This document shows, in pieces, positions 26,264-34,738 of a stretch of 64,000 nt of DNA; within the stretch, counting starts at the first letter, position 1, and each line of letters opens with the position of its first letter. The notes beneath the pieces were generated by a model. It saw only the letters and a list, made by a program, of their open reading frames with translations, searched no databases and was not told the origin of the DNA. This stretch comes from an uncultured Verrucomicrobiales bacterium (GTDB taxonomy: Bacteria > Verrucomicrobiota > Verrucomicrobiia > Verrucomicrobiales > Akkermansiaceae). The stretch spans positions 62,001-126,000 of the forward strand of contig CALFBI010000004.1 in the NCBI GenBank assembly GCA_937951675.1. Reading direction: 5' to 3'. Both the position numbers and the translations under genes were made by a program.

Positions 26264-27061
26264 ATGACCTTTTCTCCTATTTCGCCCTTGATGGTTACCT
26301 CTCTCTTATGCTCGACATTAATGAGCTACGGGCAGGGACCTGGTTTTGTGACTGATTATATTCAAATTAGCTCTGGTGGTGGTGCCACCGACACCCAAAT
26401 CAACACGACCACAGAAGCTCTCGCCATCTATAATGCTTCGGTCTCTCTTGGTGATGGCCAAACGGGATCCGTTAATGTCGGAAGCGCTGTTTACAATGTT
26501 GTCGAAGTTGTTAGAGGACACACCTCCCCTAATATTAATTTTGGAAACCAAGTTGCTACTTTTTCTGGAAATGACGATTGGCCCAGTCAAGACGCTATTA
26601 TCGGGGGGTCCGACTTTCTCGCCCGAACGACTAGCTCCTTAATCATTCCCGCCGGAACTTGGCAAATTGCTTTCGGCAGTGATGACGGAGCTTTCATTAA
26701 ACTTCCTGGTATTAATTTCAGTAATGAGTTCAACGAAAACGGAGGCACCTCGGGAGATGACACAATCTTTTATAACCCTCCCCGTGGCCATGCCTGGACA
26801 GGAGGAACAATCACTCTAGCGTCTGATACTACTGTTCTACTAGAAGCTCTCGTCTTCGAACGAGGAGGAGGAGACACTCTTGAAATCGCAATCCGCGATG
26901 CTAGTGCAGGATCTATCAGCTCTGTCAACTCAACTAACTGGGATCTATTAGAAAACGGACAATTAGGCTGGAATGTCACACAACCCATCCCTGAACCCAC
27001 TTCACTTGCTCTCTGCGCCTTAACAGCTCTCGTGGGTTTAGCACGTCGTTCTCGTATATAA
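26264..27061 (+). CDS. PEP-CTERM sorting-domain protein
   Basis: 265 residues. N-terminal signal region (about 1-24), then a Gly/Ser/Thr-rich beta-type secreted domain with GTWQIAFGSDDGAFIKLPG, reminiscent of PA14-like folds. The C-terminus is a full PEP-CTERM tail: IPEPTSLALCALTALVGLA (PEP at residues 243-245), then the basic RRSRI. Such tails are recognised and cut by exosortase at the inner membrane during export. An exosortase is encoded about 23 kb to the right. The last 24 bases, which encode the tail end, overlap the 3' end of the convergent PhyH-family gene. Confidence 0.9.
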   Translation: MTFSPISPLMVTSLLCSTLMSYGQGPGFVTDYIQISSGGGATDTQINTTTEALAIYNASVSLGDGQTGSVNVGSAVYNVVEVVRGHTSPNINFGNQVATFSGNDDWPSQDAIIGGSDFLARTTSSLIIPAGTWQIAFGSDDGAFIKLPGINFSNEFNENGGTSGDDTIFYNPPRGHAWTGGTITLASDTTVLLEALVFERGGGDTLEIAIRDASAGSISSVNSTNWDLLENGQLGWNVTQPIPEPTSLALCALTALVGLARRSRI

Positions 27062-30376: not shown

Positions 30377-31879
30377 TTAATTTTCCTCTGACATTTCCCG
30401 GATAGCAAATGCTTTTATTTTAGAGACGACCGATTCTAGATTTTCCCACTGGTCTGGCCGCCCAGAATTCATCCAAACCTGAGCTCCCTCAGATTTAAAA
30501 TGAAAATCTCTAAAATAGCGATCGCGGTTTCCTTCTAAAGGGTAAAGCCATCGTGAAGTCCACCTGGTTAAAAGGCTTCCCATTCCAAAACGAGTAAAAA
30601 CCTCGCTCCACCGATCATTTGCGACAATTCGGACCACTCCTCTTCCCCTTCTTTGAAAAAGAGATTCATAACCATTCCCCATCAACACAAGTTCAGGTTG
30701 ATAAACTTTGACCAAGGGCACCTGTATCAGCCCGTTCCGCATGAGAGCTTTTAGCTGAGCGTATTCAAAGTGATAATTCCCACCTCGCTTTTGATGCCGA
30801 AGCGTGAAAGGACCTACCCGAGCGTCCGCATAAAGTTTCATCTGAGTAAGCTGGAGTAAAGAACCAGCCCCTTGAAGAGTGAGTTGAGCCTGATCAAGAT
30901 CAACTCCAAACCCGGACCATTCAAACAATAAATAATGGTGTGGTTCTGAATGAGTCAAACTCACTCCTCCCTTCACTAAATAAGGCGGTCTCGACATCAA
31001 CGAGAAATCATACTGATAACGCAGAGCGCTTCCTTTCACTTCCTTGCCTTTTGCTGAAATTTGATTCTGCTTCCAAACGAGGGGAAGTCTTTTGGGAGCC
31101 CTCAGCTCCTGCTCACCGATCAGCAACCTTTCATATTCAATAAAACTCCTCTCTTCTTGATCGGTGCTAAGATGCAGCGCAATCTCATCGATTTCAATCA
31201 CAGGCAGATCACTTGAAACCTTCGTGAGCCCTATTTTTATTTTTCCTTTATTTATTTTAATCTTTCTGTGCGCCTGAACTAAGGGGGCTTGCTTCCCTTT
31301 CTGTTCATGAAGCGCTTTAGGACTGAGAGGTGACTTGTTCTCGCCCCCTTTTTTAACCAAAGGTTTTTGTTTTTGGACGGGTTCCCCTTTTTGCTTAGGA
31401 ACAGACAAATCTAACTTATTTTTTTGAGGAGCACGTAACTGTTCTTTTATTAATGGAAGAGTTTGATGATCTGTAACTTGAGTGAAAGACGGTTGATCAA
31501 TAAGCGTCTCTAATAACTCCTGAAGCTGCTTTTCAGAAAGATCCAAAAAAGGGGCCTCGATCGAAATAGACTTAAAAGGCCGTTTTTCTTCTTTAAACAA
31601 ACTTCTAAAATTGAGTGCTATTTCCATTTTCTCGATGGAAAGAAACTGGTTTTTCGAATCTCGATACCGACAAGTTGTTTCACCTACAATGATTTTAGAT
31701 TCAAAGGGGTTAATCACCACCGTTCCTAAGTTTGCCTTCACCCCTATTCTCTGCAAAATCATCTTCTCTACTCGTCCCTTTACTAACGGTGAGTTCACAA
31801 TTCCCCACCCTAAAGCCACTAGACTTACCCCAATGAAAAATGCCCAGCGTAAATACCGACCTAGGTTCTTTCTCGTCAT
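30377..31879 (-). CDS. unrecognised membrane-anchored envelope protein, AsmA-like
   Basis: 500 residues. A single N-terminal helix (about 10-28) is followed by VNSPLVKGRVEKMILQRIG and VKANLGTVVINPF, then IEKMEIALNFRSLF, a pattern common at the start of AsmA/DUF748-type repeats that bridge the periplasm. A Lys/Gln/Pro-rich linker (about 150-205) separates it from a beta-rich domain (IKINKGKIKIGL, LTLQGAGSLLQLTQ) and a final basic segment with WTSRWLYPL. The architecture suggests an inner-membrane protein reaching into the periplasm. The family call is a guess. Its stop is 2 bases before rsmD. Confidence 0.5.
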   Translation of the reverse strand: MTRKNLGRYLRWAFFIGVSLVALGWGIVNSPLVKGRVEKMILQRIGVKANLGTVVINPFESKIIVGETTCRYRDSKNQFLSIEKMEIALNFRSLFKEEKRPFKSISIEAPFLDLSEKQLQELLETLIDQPSFTQVTDHQTLPLIKEQLRAPQKNKLDLSVPKQKGEPVQKQKPLVKKGGENKSPLSPKALHEQKGKQAPLVQAHRKIKINKGKIKIGLTKVSSDLPVIEIDEIALHLSTDQEERSFIEYERLLIGEQELRAPKRLPLVWKQNQISAKGKEVKGSALRYQYDFSLMSRPPYLVKGGVSLTHSEPHHYLLFEWSGFGVDLDQAQLTLQGAGSLLQLTQMKLYADARVGPFTLRHQKRGGNYHFEYAQLKALMRNGLIQVPLVKVYQPELVLMGNGYESLFQRRGRGVVRIVANDRWSEVFTRFGMGSLLTRWTSRWLYPLEGNRDRYFRDFHFKSEGAQVWMNSGRPDQWENLESVVSKIKAFAIREMSEEN

Positions 31880-32577
31880 TTTTTAGAAATAGGAAACCTC
31901 ACAATAGAGCTTTTATCGTAAAGGCGGCGACCTGATGCCGAGACCTCCTGCAACCGATAAACAATCAGGGCATATTCACCCCCTGCTTGAATTCCTATTG
32001 CGATATTTTCTTTTGTAATACTAAAAGAACTCTCTTCGAAAAACTTCCACTCTTTCCCCTTCCAAGCACCCAGCGGACTATCTTCAGGGGCATCAATATT
32101 ATCGATTCTTACTAAAGCGCCATTAGGCGATTGGAAGTAATCACCCTTTGGGTGATATTGAAGAAGGGAAATATGACTTGCCGAACCGCTTGCTCGAATC
32201 ACCCAATTTCCATTCGAGTTCTCTTCTAAATGTAAGTTAACGGGCCCTATTTCTTTAAATTTTCGAGCCTTCCACAGTTCAGCATACTCTTTATATTCTT
32301 TGGGCGTTAAGCCCAATTTTTTATCATATAGTAACGCTCTCCCTAGAGGAGTTTTCTTCTTATGATCCCGAAACCATTCAGGGTCTTCACTCGCTGCGAT
32401 TTGAAGCTTTTGGAGAAGTGGTGCTATTTGCTTCGGAGGCAGCATCACAACTAATGCTCCTTTCACCTTTTTATCCTTTCCAAAAATTTCTTTGAAAGCT
32501 TCAGGTTCGGCATGAAGTGCCATGGATAACAAAACAGTTACCGCCATCAACTCCACTAATATAAATACTTGTCTCAT
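31876..32577 (-). CDS. unrecognised secreted protein
   Basis: 233 residues with a signal-like N-terminus (MRQVFILVELMAVTVLLSMA, cleavage likely after LHA). The first half is basic and helical (KDKKVKGALVVMLPPKQ, YKEYAELWKARKF); the second is beta-type (WVIRASGSASHISLL, FQSPNGALVRIDNID, YALIVYRLQEV). Nothing matches a family I know. The start abuts the upstream 4-helix protein gene and its stop overlaps the next start (ATGA type), so it is coupled to both. Confidence 0.55.
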   Translation of the reverse strand: MRQVFILVELMAVTVLLSMALHAEPEAFKEIFGKDKKVKGALVVMLPPKQIAPLLQKLQIAASEDPEWFRDHKKKTPLGRALLYDKKLGLTPKEYKEYAELWKARKFKEIGPVNLHLEENSNGNWVIRASGSASHISLLQYHPKGDYFQSPNGALVRIDNIDAPEDSPLGAWKGKEWKFFEESSFSITKENIAIGIQAGGEYALIVYRLQEVSASGRRLYDKSSIVRFPISKK

Positions 32578-32982
32578 TTAATCTCGCGACTGAAACGATT
32601 TCAAAAGCAGCCCTGCCCCGGCCGCAATCAGCAATAAAATTAACAATAAGTGAGTTAATTTCGTATTCATCACAAAACGAACTCGACTTAAAATCTCTAC
32701 AACAATGAGCATAAGACCTAAGCCTGATAAGACCCAACCCCACTTTGATTTCGACTTATAAAATAAACGAATCGCTCCTATCATAAATGGAGCAAATACA
32801 ATTCCCATAGAAGTCGTCTCTGATAAGCCCGACCGGTGATGAAACATGCCTGAAAAAGCCCCAAAGTCACCCGAGACTACTCTAACTGAGTCTAAAAACA
32901 GATAGAGACCTAGCCCTAGTAATACGGCACCCCATCCAAGAGTGGCCACTCCCGAACCTCCTTCTGTTCCGCCTGGTTTCAT
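32578..32982 (-). CDS. unrecognised small membrane protein
   Basis: 134 residues with about four hydrophobic helices: 13-30, 57-71, 79-96 and 108-123, joined by short loops (MFHHRSGLSETTSMG and YKSKSK). The first 11 residues are Gly-rich and the C-terminus is LLKSFQSRD. No recognisable family. The ATG overlaps the stop of the upstream gene by 4 bases, and its stop directly abuts the next start. Confidence 0.55.
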   Translation of the reverse strand: MKPGGTEGGSGVATLGWGAVLLGLGLYLFLDSVRVVSGDFGAFSGMFHHRSGLSETTSMGIVFAPFMIGAIRLFYKSKSKWGWVLSGLGLMLIVVEILSRVRFVMNTKLTHLLLILLLIAAGAGLLLKSFQSRD

Positions 32983-34025
32983 GGTGTTTTAGAGGGGCGT
33001 TCACTTTCATCCAACATAAGCCACCTTTGACAAATCACTTTTTCAATTAAAAACCCCCGCGGGTGAGTCGTGTTTGGCTGATGCTTCAAAGTAAGAATAA
33101 AAGCAATGGGCCGATAAGTATTTGTTTTCTGAAGATAAGTGAAAATATTCACCAACTTCATAAAATCGGGGTTATCTCGTCTAATATAGCCTATCCCTTC
33201 CCGATCTGCACCAGGAGTCGACATTTTGAAAGCATGGTAAACTTCCGAGTCTTCATACTCAAAAGCATAATAGTTATCCGGAAAAACATTCACTCTGAAA
33301 TCAAGTGGCTCTTCTATTTGCTGCTCGATAAATTCATTCCAGTCCATTGGTTGATAAGCCACTGATGTCTCCCAATCGATTTTCAAAGAGTCCTTACCTT
33401 CGACTAAACAGAAATGATACATACTCCCATCTTCTGCATGGATCACGGCCGTATGGATTTCTTTACCTTGGATAAGGTCGAGGGAGTAATCACTAATGTA
33501 ATCAAACTTTTTGGGCTCGAGTTGGTTCTTTTCATAATGCCCCTGCATCAATGGTAAGACACGATTAGGGTCTCTCACTAGTGGCAGCATATCCTCGATG
33601 CTTTGTGCACTCATAAAATCCGCCGCTCTTTGCTCTACTCTCGCGAGAATTTCTTCTGCTTGTTCTTTACTCACTTCCGATTGGACTCCTTTTTCTTCAG
33701 ACTTTTGCTTCTCTAAGCCCTGGTCCACAGGAGACGCGTCCGCCCTCTTATTTCGATTATGATTATTATACATCAAAACCCCTATTCCTAAGAATGCTAA
33801 GAGCACAAAAGAAGACAGCCACCAGATCGGACTCTTATTGGCTTTTTTAGATAACGCCACTTCTTTCCCTTCGCCCCATTGCTCCTCACTACCTTTAGGT
33901 TCTTCGGCAGGAGGGACTTTAGATTGAAACGTCACCTTCCCTGATCTCTCTGCTTTGCGAGTTTCAGTTGGATTCGTTAACCGCACTACTTGGTCTTTTT
34001 TTTCGGATGAAGGGTCGAGGCTCAA
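32979..34025 (-). CDS. unrecognised membrane-anchored protein
   Basis: 348 residues. A charged, disordered cytoplasmic N-terminus (about 1-65) is followed by one helix (WWLSSFVLLAFLGIGVLMY) and a periplasmic domain. The start is TTG at 34023-34025, as no ATG precedes it and the frame runs further upstream. The soluble part begins with a coiled coil (EVSKEQAEEILARVEQRA) and continues with EDMLPLVRDPNRVLP, a beta-rich region with YHFCLVEGKDSLKIDWETS, and a final KVICQRWLMLDE. This is the first gene of the operon leading to rsmD and waaA; no domain is recognised. Confidence 0.55.
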   Translation of the reverse strand: MSLDPSSEKKDQVVRLTNPTETRKAERSGKVTFQSKVPPAEEPKGSEEQWGEGKEVALSKKANKSPIWWLSSFVLLAFLGIGVLMYNNHNRNKRADASPVDQGLEKQKSEEKGVQSEVSKEQAEEILARVEQRAADFMSAQSIEDMLPLVRDPNRVLPLMQGHYEKNQLEPKKFDYISDYSLDLIQGKEIHTAVIHAEDGSMYHFCLVEGKDSLKIDWETSVAYQPMDWNEFIEQQIEEPLDFRVNVFPDNYYAFEYEDSEVYHAFKMSTPGADREGIGYIRRDNPDFMKLVNIFTYLQKTNTYRPIAFILTLKHQPNTTHPRGFLIEKVICQRWLMLDESERPSKTP

Positions 34026-34132: not shown

Positions 34133-34738
34133 ATGAAATATGACGCTATTTTAGTGGATATCGGGAATGTCTTAATGACTTTCGATTTCTTACCAGCCAT
34201 GAAGGAACTGGCTCCTTCATTTGGAGATGACTTCGAGGCTCCATTCGAGCTCCTCATGGAAAAAAAAGATGATTTCGAAAGAGGGCTTTTATCTGAAACG
34301 GAATATATCACTTGGGCTTCAGATATTCTCCGTTTTACCGGCACTCATGATGAATTCAAGACTGCTTGGAATTCTATATTTACCCCTAATCAATTAATGT
34401 GGAATGATTTGAAAATCTCTATGGAGCTCGGATTGAAACATGTGATTTTCTCTAATACGAATGCGATTCACGCCCCTTGGTTAATGAAAAATTGCCCTCT
34501 ATTACCCAAATTCGATGGTTATGTCTTTTCTCATCAAGTCGGGGCTATCAAGCCTCAAGCACCTATTTATCAATACGCGATCGAGCAATTTAACCTAGAT
34601 CCGTCTAAAACACTCTACATTGATGACCTTCTGCCCAATATCATTCAAGGCCAAGAATGGGGACTCCACTCACATCGTTATGACCCAAAGAATCATTCAG
34701 CATTTAAGCGTTGGTTTGACGAAAAACTCGACGCCTGA
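34133..34738 (+). CDS. HAD-superfamily hydrolase
   Basis: 201 residues of the HAD family, subclass with helical cap, similar in length to YihX-like phosphatases. Motif I is AILVDIGNVLMTF with nucleophile Asp9, motif II HVIFSNTNA, motif III Lys in VGAIKPQAPIYQYA, and motif IV TLYIDDLLPNI. A sugar or nucleotide phosphate is the probable substrate. The last 35 bases overlap the 3' end of the convergent DUF4126 gene. It is divergent from the envelope operon, 107 bases away. Confidence 0.88.
   Translation: MKYDAILVDIGNVLMTFDFLPAMKELAPSFGDDFEAPFELLMEKKDDFERGLLSETEYITWASDILRFTGTHDEFKTAWNSIFTPNQLMWNDLKISMELGLKHVIFSNTNAIHAPWLMKNCPLLPKFDGYVFSHQVGAIKPQAPIYQYAIEQFNLDPSKTLYIDDLLPNIIQGQEWGLHSHRYDPKNHSAFKRWFDEKLDA

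Follow-up and report, generated by a model that had tools for sequence, protein, structure and literature searches.

What do the four unnamed genes that lead rsmD and waaA in this stretch of DNA encode, and do they form one unit? The window, by which we mean the whole 64,000-nucleotide stretch of contig CALFBI010000004.1 (positions 62,001 to 126,000) of an uncultured Verrucomicrobiales bacterium, belongs to a genome assembly of 2.05 Mb in 28 contigs. Its four genes, here referred to as A, B, C and D, had been taken in a first-pass annotation for a single undescribed envelope module tied to waaA and to outer-membrane or lipopolysaccharide (LPS) function. We found instead that the locus is a lineage-specific junction of two blocks, one made of a divergent HAD-family hydrolase gene with A and sometimes B, the other of C, D, rsmD and waaA. 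As to function, we lean, with little more confidence than doubt, towards a reading in which the two blocks are fused, D is an inner-membrane lipid-transfer groove serving outer-membrane lipid homeostasis, and C is its candidate partner. The genes concerned are the following (window coordinates).

34025-32979, minus strand: A, 348 aa, TTG start; single-transmembrane (TM) protein, conserved in its extracytoplasmic domain and belonging to a paralogous family
32982-32578, minus strand: B, 134 aa; small hydrophobic protein with about 4 TM segments, 4-nt overlap with A
32577-31876, minus strand: C, 233 aa; predicted secreted protein of an undescribed family, abutting B
31879-30377, minus strand: D, 500 aa; short protein assigned to the AsmA family (DUF748-type), 4-nt overlap with C
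30374-29835, minus strand: rsmD, 16S rRNA (guanine966-N2)-methyltransferase (TIGR00095), 2 nt after D
29831-28584, minus strand: waaA (kdtA), Kdo (3-deoxy-D-manno-octulosonic acid) transferase (PF04413), 3 nt after rsmD
34133-34738, plus strand: HAD-family hydrolase (PF00702, E 1.5e-9), the divergent neighbour that keeps company with A

The four leftward open reading frames (ORFs), with their overlaps or abutment before rsmD and waaA, lie exactly where they had been reported, and their order recurs in relatives that encode all four proteins; A, B, C and D are therefore real genes. Named loci of relatives, which were retrieved using B as query, are labelled Akkermansiaceae, Verrucomicrobiales or Roseibacillus, all of them within Verrucomicrobiales in the NCBI taxonomy. 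The identity of rsmD is given by TIGR00095 (144.9 bits against a cut-off of 117.5, E 2.2e-42), and that of waaA by PF04413 (E 8.4e-50), its best NCBIfam match being PRK05749 (E 3e-79, under the equivalog cut-off of that model). All four proteins have features of envelope proteins, as had been proposed, namely one TM segment in A, about four in B, a signal-like segment in C and one TM segment in D.

Judged from its sequence, D is a short AsmA-family protein with an N-terminal TM segment, a putative chorein-N-like region, a linker and a predicted C-terminal beta meander. It matched PF05359 (DUF748) of Pfam over residues 4-121 with an E value of 4.4e-10, and among 24 orthologs DUF748 was found in 20, AsmA in 5 and YhdP in 4, with best E values of 1.7e-6 for AsmA and 3e-11 for YhdP. 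In two other families of the class, D-like proteins whose genes lie upstream of rsmD scored 36.3 and 45.7 bits for AsmA (cut-off 29.8), and one such protein passed the DUF748 cut-off (50.4 against 50 bits). When the profile of D was compared by hhalign with AsmA-like proteins of other families, the match (99.9%, E 6.6e-31) extended over 445 columns and the relation is therefore full length. Compared directly with the single AsmA sequence of Escherichia coli, the D profile gave a weak match (34%, E 4e-4, over 94 N-terminal columns), and D sequences diverge to 14-22% identity among relatives. The AsmA-like nature that had been suspected for the 500-residue protein is thus borne out, and D can be named, whereas A, B and C match no curated Pfam or NCBIfam family, scans of their orthologs having returned only scattered matches at chance level.

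In AsmA-like proteins a TM helix (~22 aa) is followed by a chorein-N domain of ~120 residues and then by an AsmA region that is 425-1125 residues long (PMC8593681). In D, a hydrophobic segment at 10-28 falls within a helix predicted at 3-28, and it is followed by a helix (31-45), strands (48-114) and a second helix (116-127), so that residues 31-127 would form a helix-sheet-helix where AsmA proteins carry chorein-N; this part is weakly predicted, with a local pLDDT (predicted local distance difference test) of only ~56-77. The structure prediction that had been suggested for D gave a mixed answer: residues ~123-300 are left without a resolved fold, mostly at pLDDT <50, and within a beta region of ~295 residues (206-500), shorter than the published range for AsmA regions, the meander of long strands is confident only from ~320, residues 300-500 being the well-predicted part of the model. 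Among the structural rows for the model were the N-terminus of Vps13 (6cbc, Z 7.8, over 31-341), LPD-3 (Z 7.6, 301 residues) and Atg2 (Z 6.7); these rows (Z 6.4-7.8) sit among mostly beta-barrel rows and are consistent with an AsmA-like groove, not decisive for it. No bacterial AsmA or TamB chain was among the structural rows listed for D, which proves nothing. A profile search of A, C and D against PDB chains gave nothing usable, and Foldseek searches of the C and D models against PDB gave no match under E 0.02; the rows 4ffu (MaoC-like) and RNA polymerase I were rejected as noise.

C represents a family that is, from its sequence, secreted and undescribed, and that is restricted to the Akkermansiaceae-type family to which the window belongs. 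It was present in 32 of 289 genomes of the phylum, that is in all 32 sampled genomes of this family and in none of the 257 outside it. It starts with a signal-like segment and has zero cysteines, and so it is not a lipoprotein. Identity between relatives is 23-47% and no stretch of C was conserved enough for a degenerate-pattern scan, with E176, W177, E190 and Y207 as invariant residues. The AlphaFold2 model (pLDDT 89.6; predicted template modelling score, pTM, 0.79) has one strand, a helical insert and then a meander of strands. Nearly all of its best VIA-align rows were calycin-type barrels, with the spirocyclases OlmO and OssO at the top (Z 8.9 and 8.8), followed by nitrobindins, a DUF3598 protein, CRL and CpeS lyases, NanoLuc and many fatty-acid-binding proteins (FABPs). 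Since these near-background matches agree, our best guess, and probably the correct one, is a calycin-like (lipocalin/FABP-like) barrel in which a helical insert follows the first strand. Calycins are antiparallel barrels of 8-10 strands around a ligand cavity, and the order of the strands predicted for C agrees with this. Tandem duplicates of C were seen beside rsmD-waaA in one genome (G191) and away from it in another (G018), at L151 5988-7797 and L041 8660-10255.

The linkage of the second block was then followed across genomes. In 32 of the 40 loci holding C, D lies directly after it (gap <=152 nt), and D is missing from the remaining 8; every strong D match in 36 genomes of the family adjoins C, one contig (G026) breaking inside D. 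Downstream, rsmD follows in 35 of 38 assessable C loci. It had been asked whether the genes always stand next to waaA, and they do not, for in 5 loci that have both C and rsmD the waaA gene is missing downstream, D remaining beside rsmD where waaA has moved. In the class as a whole a D-like match, in many cases only partial, was present in 87 of 113 genomes, and among the best 30 D-like loci rsmD was directly downstream in 19, 9 of which had waaA within the fetched flank. The D-rsmD(-waaA) linkage is therefore old, and with a neighbourhood of 3 kb in genomes of 2-7 Mb chance cannot account for it across the class. In other families rsmD is preceded by an unrelated gene (sulfatase, GH32, esterase, rhomboid or LpxB).

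The association of A and B follows a different pattern. A, with one TM segment (67-85) after an N-terminal part of 66 residues, belongs to a set of paralogs, up to 7 in a single genome, that is found also in neighbouring families. Its closest relatives mostly adjoin the divergent HAD gene, with or without C in the vicinity, and A pairs with the HAD gene also where C-D-rsmD-waaA lies elsewhere in the genome. Where A and C are apart, an MGDG (monogalactosyldiacylglycerol)-synthase-like glycosyltransferase sits between HAD and A (PF06925, 5.6e-19, L187 5425-6537), and a protein of the same size holds this position in other genomes. In some genomes a membrane protein of ~720 residues with a sulfatase fold (PF00884, 1.1e-34) follows A, and in 3 genomes it sits between A and C. 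Its size and layout resemble those of phosphoglycerol or phosphoethanolamine transferases of the LtaS/EptA type. The loci with this gene after A are given below.

L185, 7961-10162: sulfatase-fold gene after A
L044, 7034-9220: sulfatase-fold gene after A
L054, 10631-12799: sulfatase-fold gene after A
L192 and L193: sulfatase-fold gene after A

B is hydrophobic and 44-62% identical in relatives. It adjoins C in 13 loci, accompanies A away from C in 2 genomes and lies apart from both in 7 loci; being found in a minority of genomes only, and in unrelated places too, it is an optional member. Matches of B to LiaF-TM and YitT were weak and judged to be due to chance. The coupling to rsmD-waaA that had been proposed for all four genes is thus conserved for C and D, while several genomes have A and B at other sites, and the idea of one module did not hold.

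How might these proteins work? AsmA-like proteins have been proposed as phospholipid transporters with a groove lined by hydrophobic residues (PMC8593681), and published work indicates that they carry phospholipid jointly (PMC8593681, PMC10900882). That D acts in outer-membrane lipid homeostasis as an inner-membrane-anchored lipid-transfer protein is the best supported part of our proposal, because of its family membership and of this published work. Its N-terminal helix would anchor it in the inner membrane, and its chorein-N-like segment and beta-meander groove would take up acyl chains of membrane lipids in the periplasm. With 500 residues D would probably not reach across the periplasm by itself and would pass the lipid to another carrier, a hand-off that Levine considered a must for AsmA-like proteins of insufficient length (PMC6791001; see also PMC10900882). 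C, as a predicted soluble periplasmic binder of an amphipathic ligand encoded beside D, would be the best candidate partner, and we put it forward as a natural candidate for this hand-off, a hypothesis that draws on its modelled fold. Co-transcription with waaA would match the supply of outer-membrane lipid to LPS synthesis. The other block, HAD | A(-B), pairs a membrane-anchored protein with a small membrane protein, and only in this lineage and some relatives would these lead the same operon. Gene order, the AsmA homology of D, the family restriction and predicted fold of C and the two-block structure are computed results, while lipid transfer, its hand-off to C, co-transcription and any role of A and B are inferences. 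Of the outer-membrane or LPS function suggested at first, the direction towards outer-membrane lipids is kept, the LPS step stays conjectural, and the AsmA identity of D points rather to phospholipid or outer-membrane lipid transfer. A stricter version, in which the short AsmA groove passes its lipid in a two-step relay to C as a dedicated soluble periplasmic carrier with a calycin barrel, we consider unlikely.

Several observations weigh against the lipid-transfer reading as a whole. The DUF748 score of D itself is under the Pfam gathering score, its AlphaFold2 model is poor overall (pLDDT 62.9, pTM 0.45), and the best Z rows of this model are ApoB and outer-membrane barrels. The calycin matches of C are weak (Z <=8.9, near the background of the tool, with root-mean-square deviations of 4-6 and Foldseek E >0.05). 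C also persists without D (in probable Akkermansia, G018, G022 and G028), and it therefore does not need D. RsmD, moreover, is an rRNA enzyme without an envelope role, and the neighbourhood alone may reflect shared expression. These last points would also fit with C and D being envelope proteins placed before an essential operon and sharing no mechanism, C acting in the periplasm on its own account, perhaps as an enzyme built on a calycin fold, and D working alone or with other AsmA proteins. The invariant glutamates, tryptophan and tyrosine of C, and the enzymes (spirocyclases) heading its structural rows, speak for this explanation, as do the copies of C, sometimes tandemly duplicated, beside rsmD where D is absent. 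What it leaves unexplained is the strict adjacency of C and D in all genomes that keep D, despite the extent to which D sequences have diverged, and we regard it as possible though clearly the less probable account. As for other AsmA proteins, TamB (PF04357) was found in 7 of 11 genomes tested in the family and gave no match in the genome of the window (G000), so that D does not score as TamB, and a second AsmA-type ORF (~931-950 aa) is present on contig C14 of the same genome (L194 3803-6598).

D and C might otherwise serve the export of the Kdo-lipid A made by WaaA, as an Lpt-like bridge or an accessory to it, rather than phospholipid transfer. D-like genes are linked to rsmD-waaA in many families and AsmA grooves resemble the Lpt bridge (PMC8593681). 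However, WaaA is cytoplasmic, D does not follow waaA when it moves, and the AsmA members studied so far have been linked to phospholipids (PMC8593681, PMC10900882). D matches AsmA, DUF748 and YhdP, and no Lpt family was among the Pfam or NCBIfam matches of C or D, which leaves room for a remote relation; we hold this route to be improbable. Less credit still is due to a single envelope machine of four proteins, as first proposed. The complete A-B-C-D order with its stop/start overlaps does occur in six loci besides the window, but several genomes with C-D-rsmD have A and B at another site, together with the HAD gene, and the many paralogs of A and the scattered, minority occurrence of B make such a machine very improbable. 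Taken together, the original observation was confirmed and its interpretation partly supported.

Beyond waaA the run had been described too short, as two more genes, each overlapping its neighbours, extend it.

28587-27862, minus strand: alpha/beta hydrolase (PF12697, 9.5e-8), after waaA in the run
27865-27038, minus strand: PhyH dioxygenase (PF05721, 3e-15), last gene of the run

No relatives of these two genes were found near C-D in the compared loci of other genomes. A scan for promoters and terminators gave no useful signal, with 3 promoter-like sites where chance would give 12, and no publication on this gene order came up in a literature search. On the plus strand, at 26264-27061, the window encodes a secreted protein whose C-terminus carries a PEP-CTERM-like motif (PF07589, E 0.0036, just under the cut-off), a hint that this genome may have an exosortase sorting system.

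By what route phospholipids get to the outer membrane is not yet fully settled, and the short AsmA-family proteins pose a puzzle within it, since by themselves they cannot bridge the periplasm. In much of the class examined here a short AsmA gene is linked to rsmD-waaA, and in the Akkermansiaceae-type family also to C, whose predicted fold is lipid-carrier-like. Conserved genes that match no curated family are now named, and the setting of D beside rsmD is newly recognised. As a hand-off partner C is a concrete and testable candidate, and the gut bacterium Akkermansia probably belongs to the group concerned. Were the C-D relay true, it would make C the first soluble shuttle partner of an AsmA-family protein that we know of, and it would account for how members of insufficient length to cross the periplasm can function.

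Among known systems, D is closest to the AsmA-like clan (AsmA, YicH, YhjG, YdbH, YhdP and TamB; PF05170, PF05359 and PF13116), to which the Pfam and hhalign results show the homology of its family, and with which it shares the TM anchor and, as far as its model goes, a putative chorein-N-like N-terminus and a predicted long beta meander. It differs from them in having only 500 aa with a low-complexity linker, and in being encoded directly upstream of rsmD-waaA, with C preceding it in the Akkermansiaceae-type family. Among described proteins the nearest parallel is PA2708 of Pseudomonas aeruginosa (361 aa, DUF748; PMC10900882), likewise a short DUF748-type protein, which was judged too short to span the periplasm, is dispensable for growth and has no known role (PMC10900882); D is the longer of the two. 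C, for its part, resembles in its predicted strand, helical insert and antiparallel meander the calycin superfamily (nitrobindin, the OlmO/OssO spirocyclases, FABPs and the CpeS/CRL lyases). Its likeness to them is one of modelled fold at Z <=8.9, no sequence similarity having been detected, and it is set apart by its predicted secretion, its larger helical insert and its different invariant residues.

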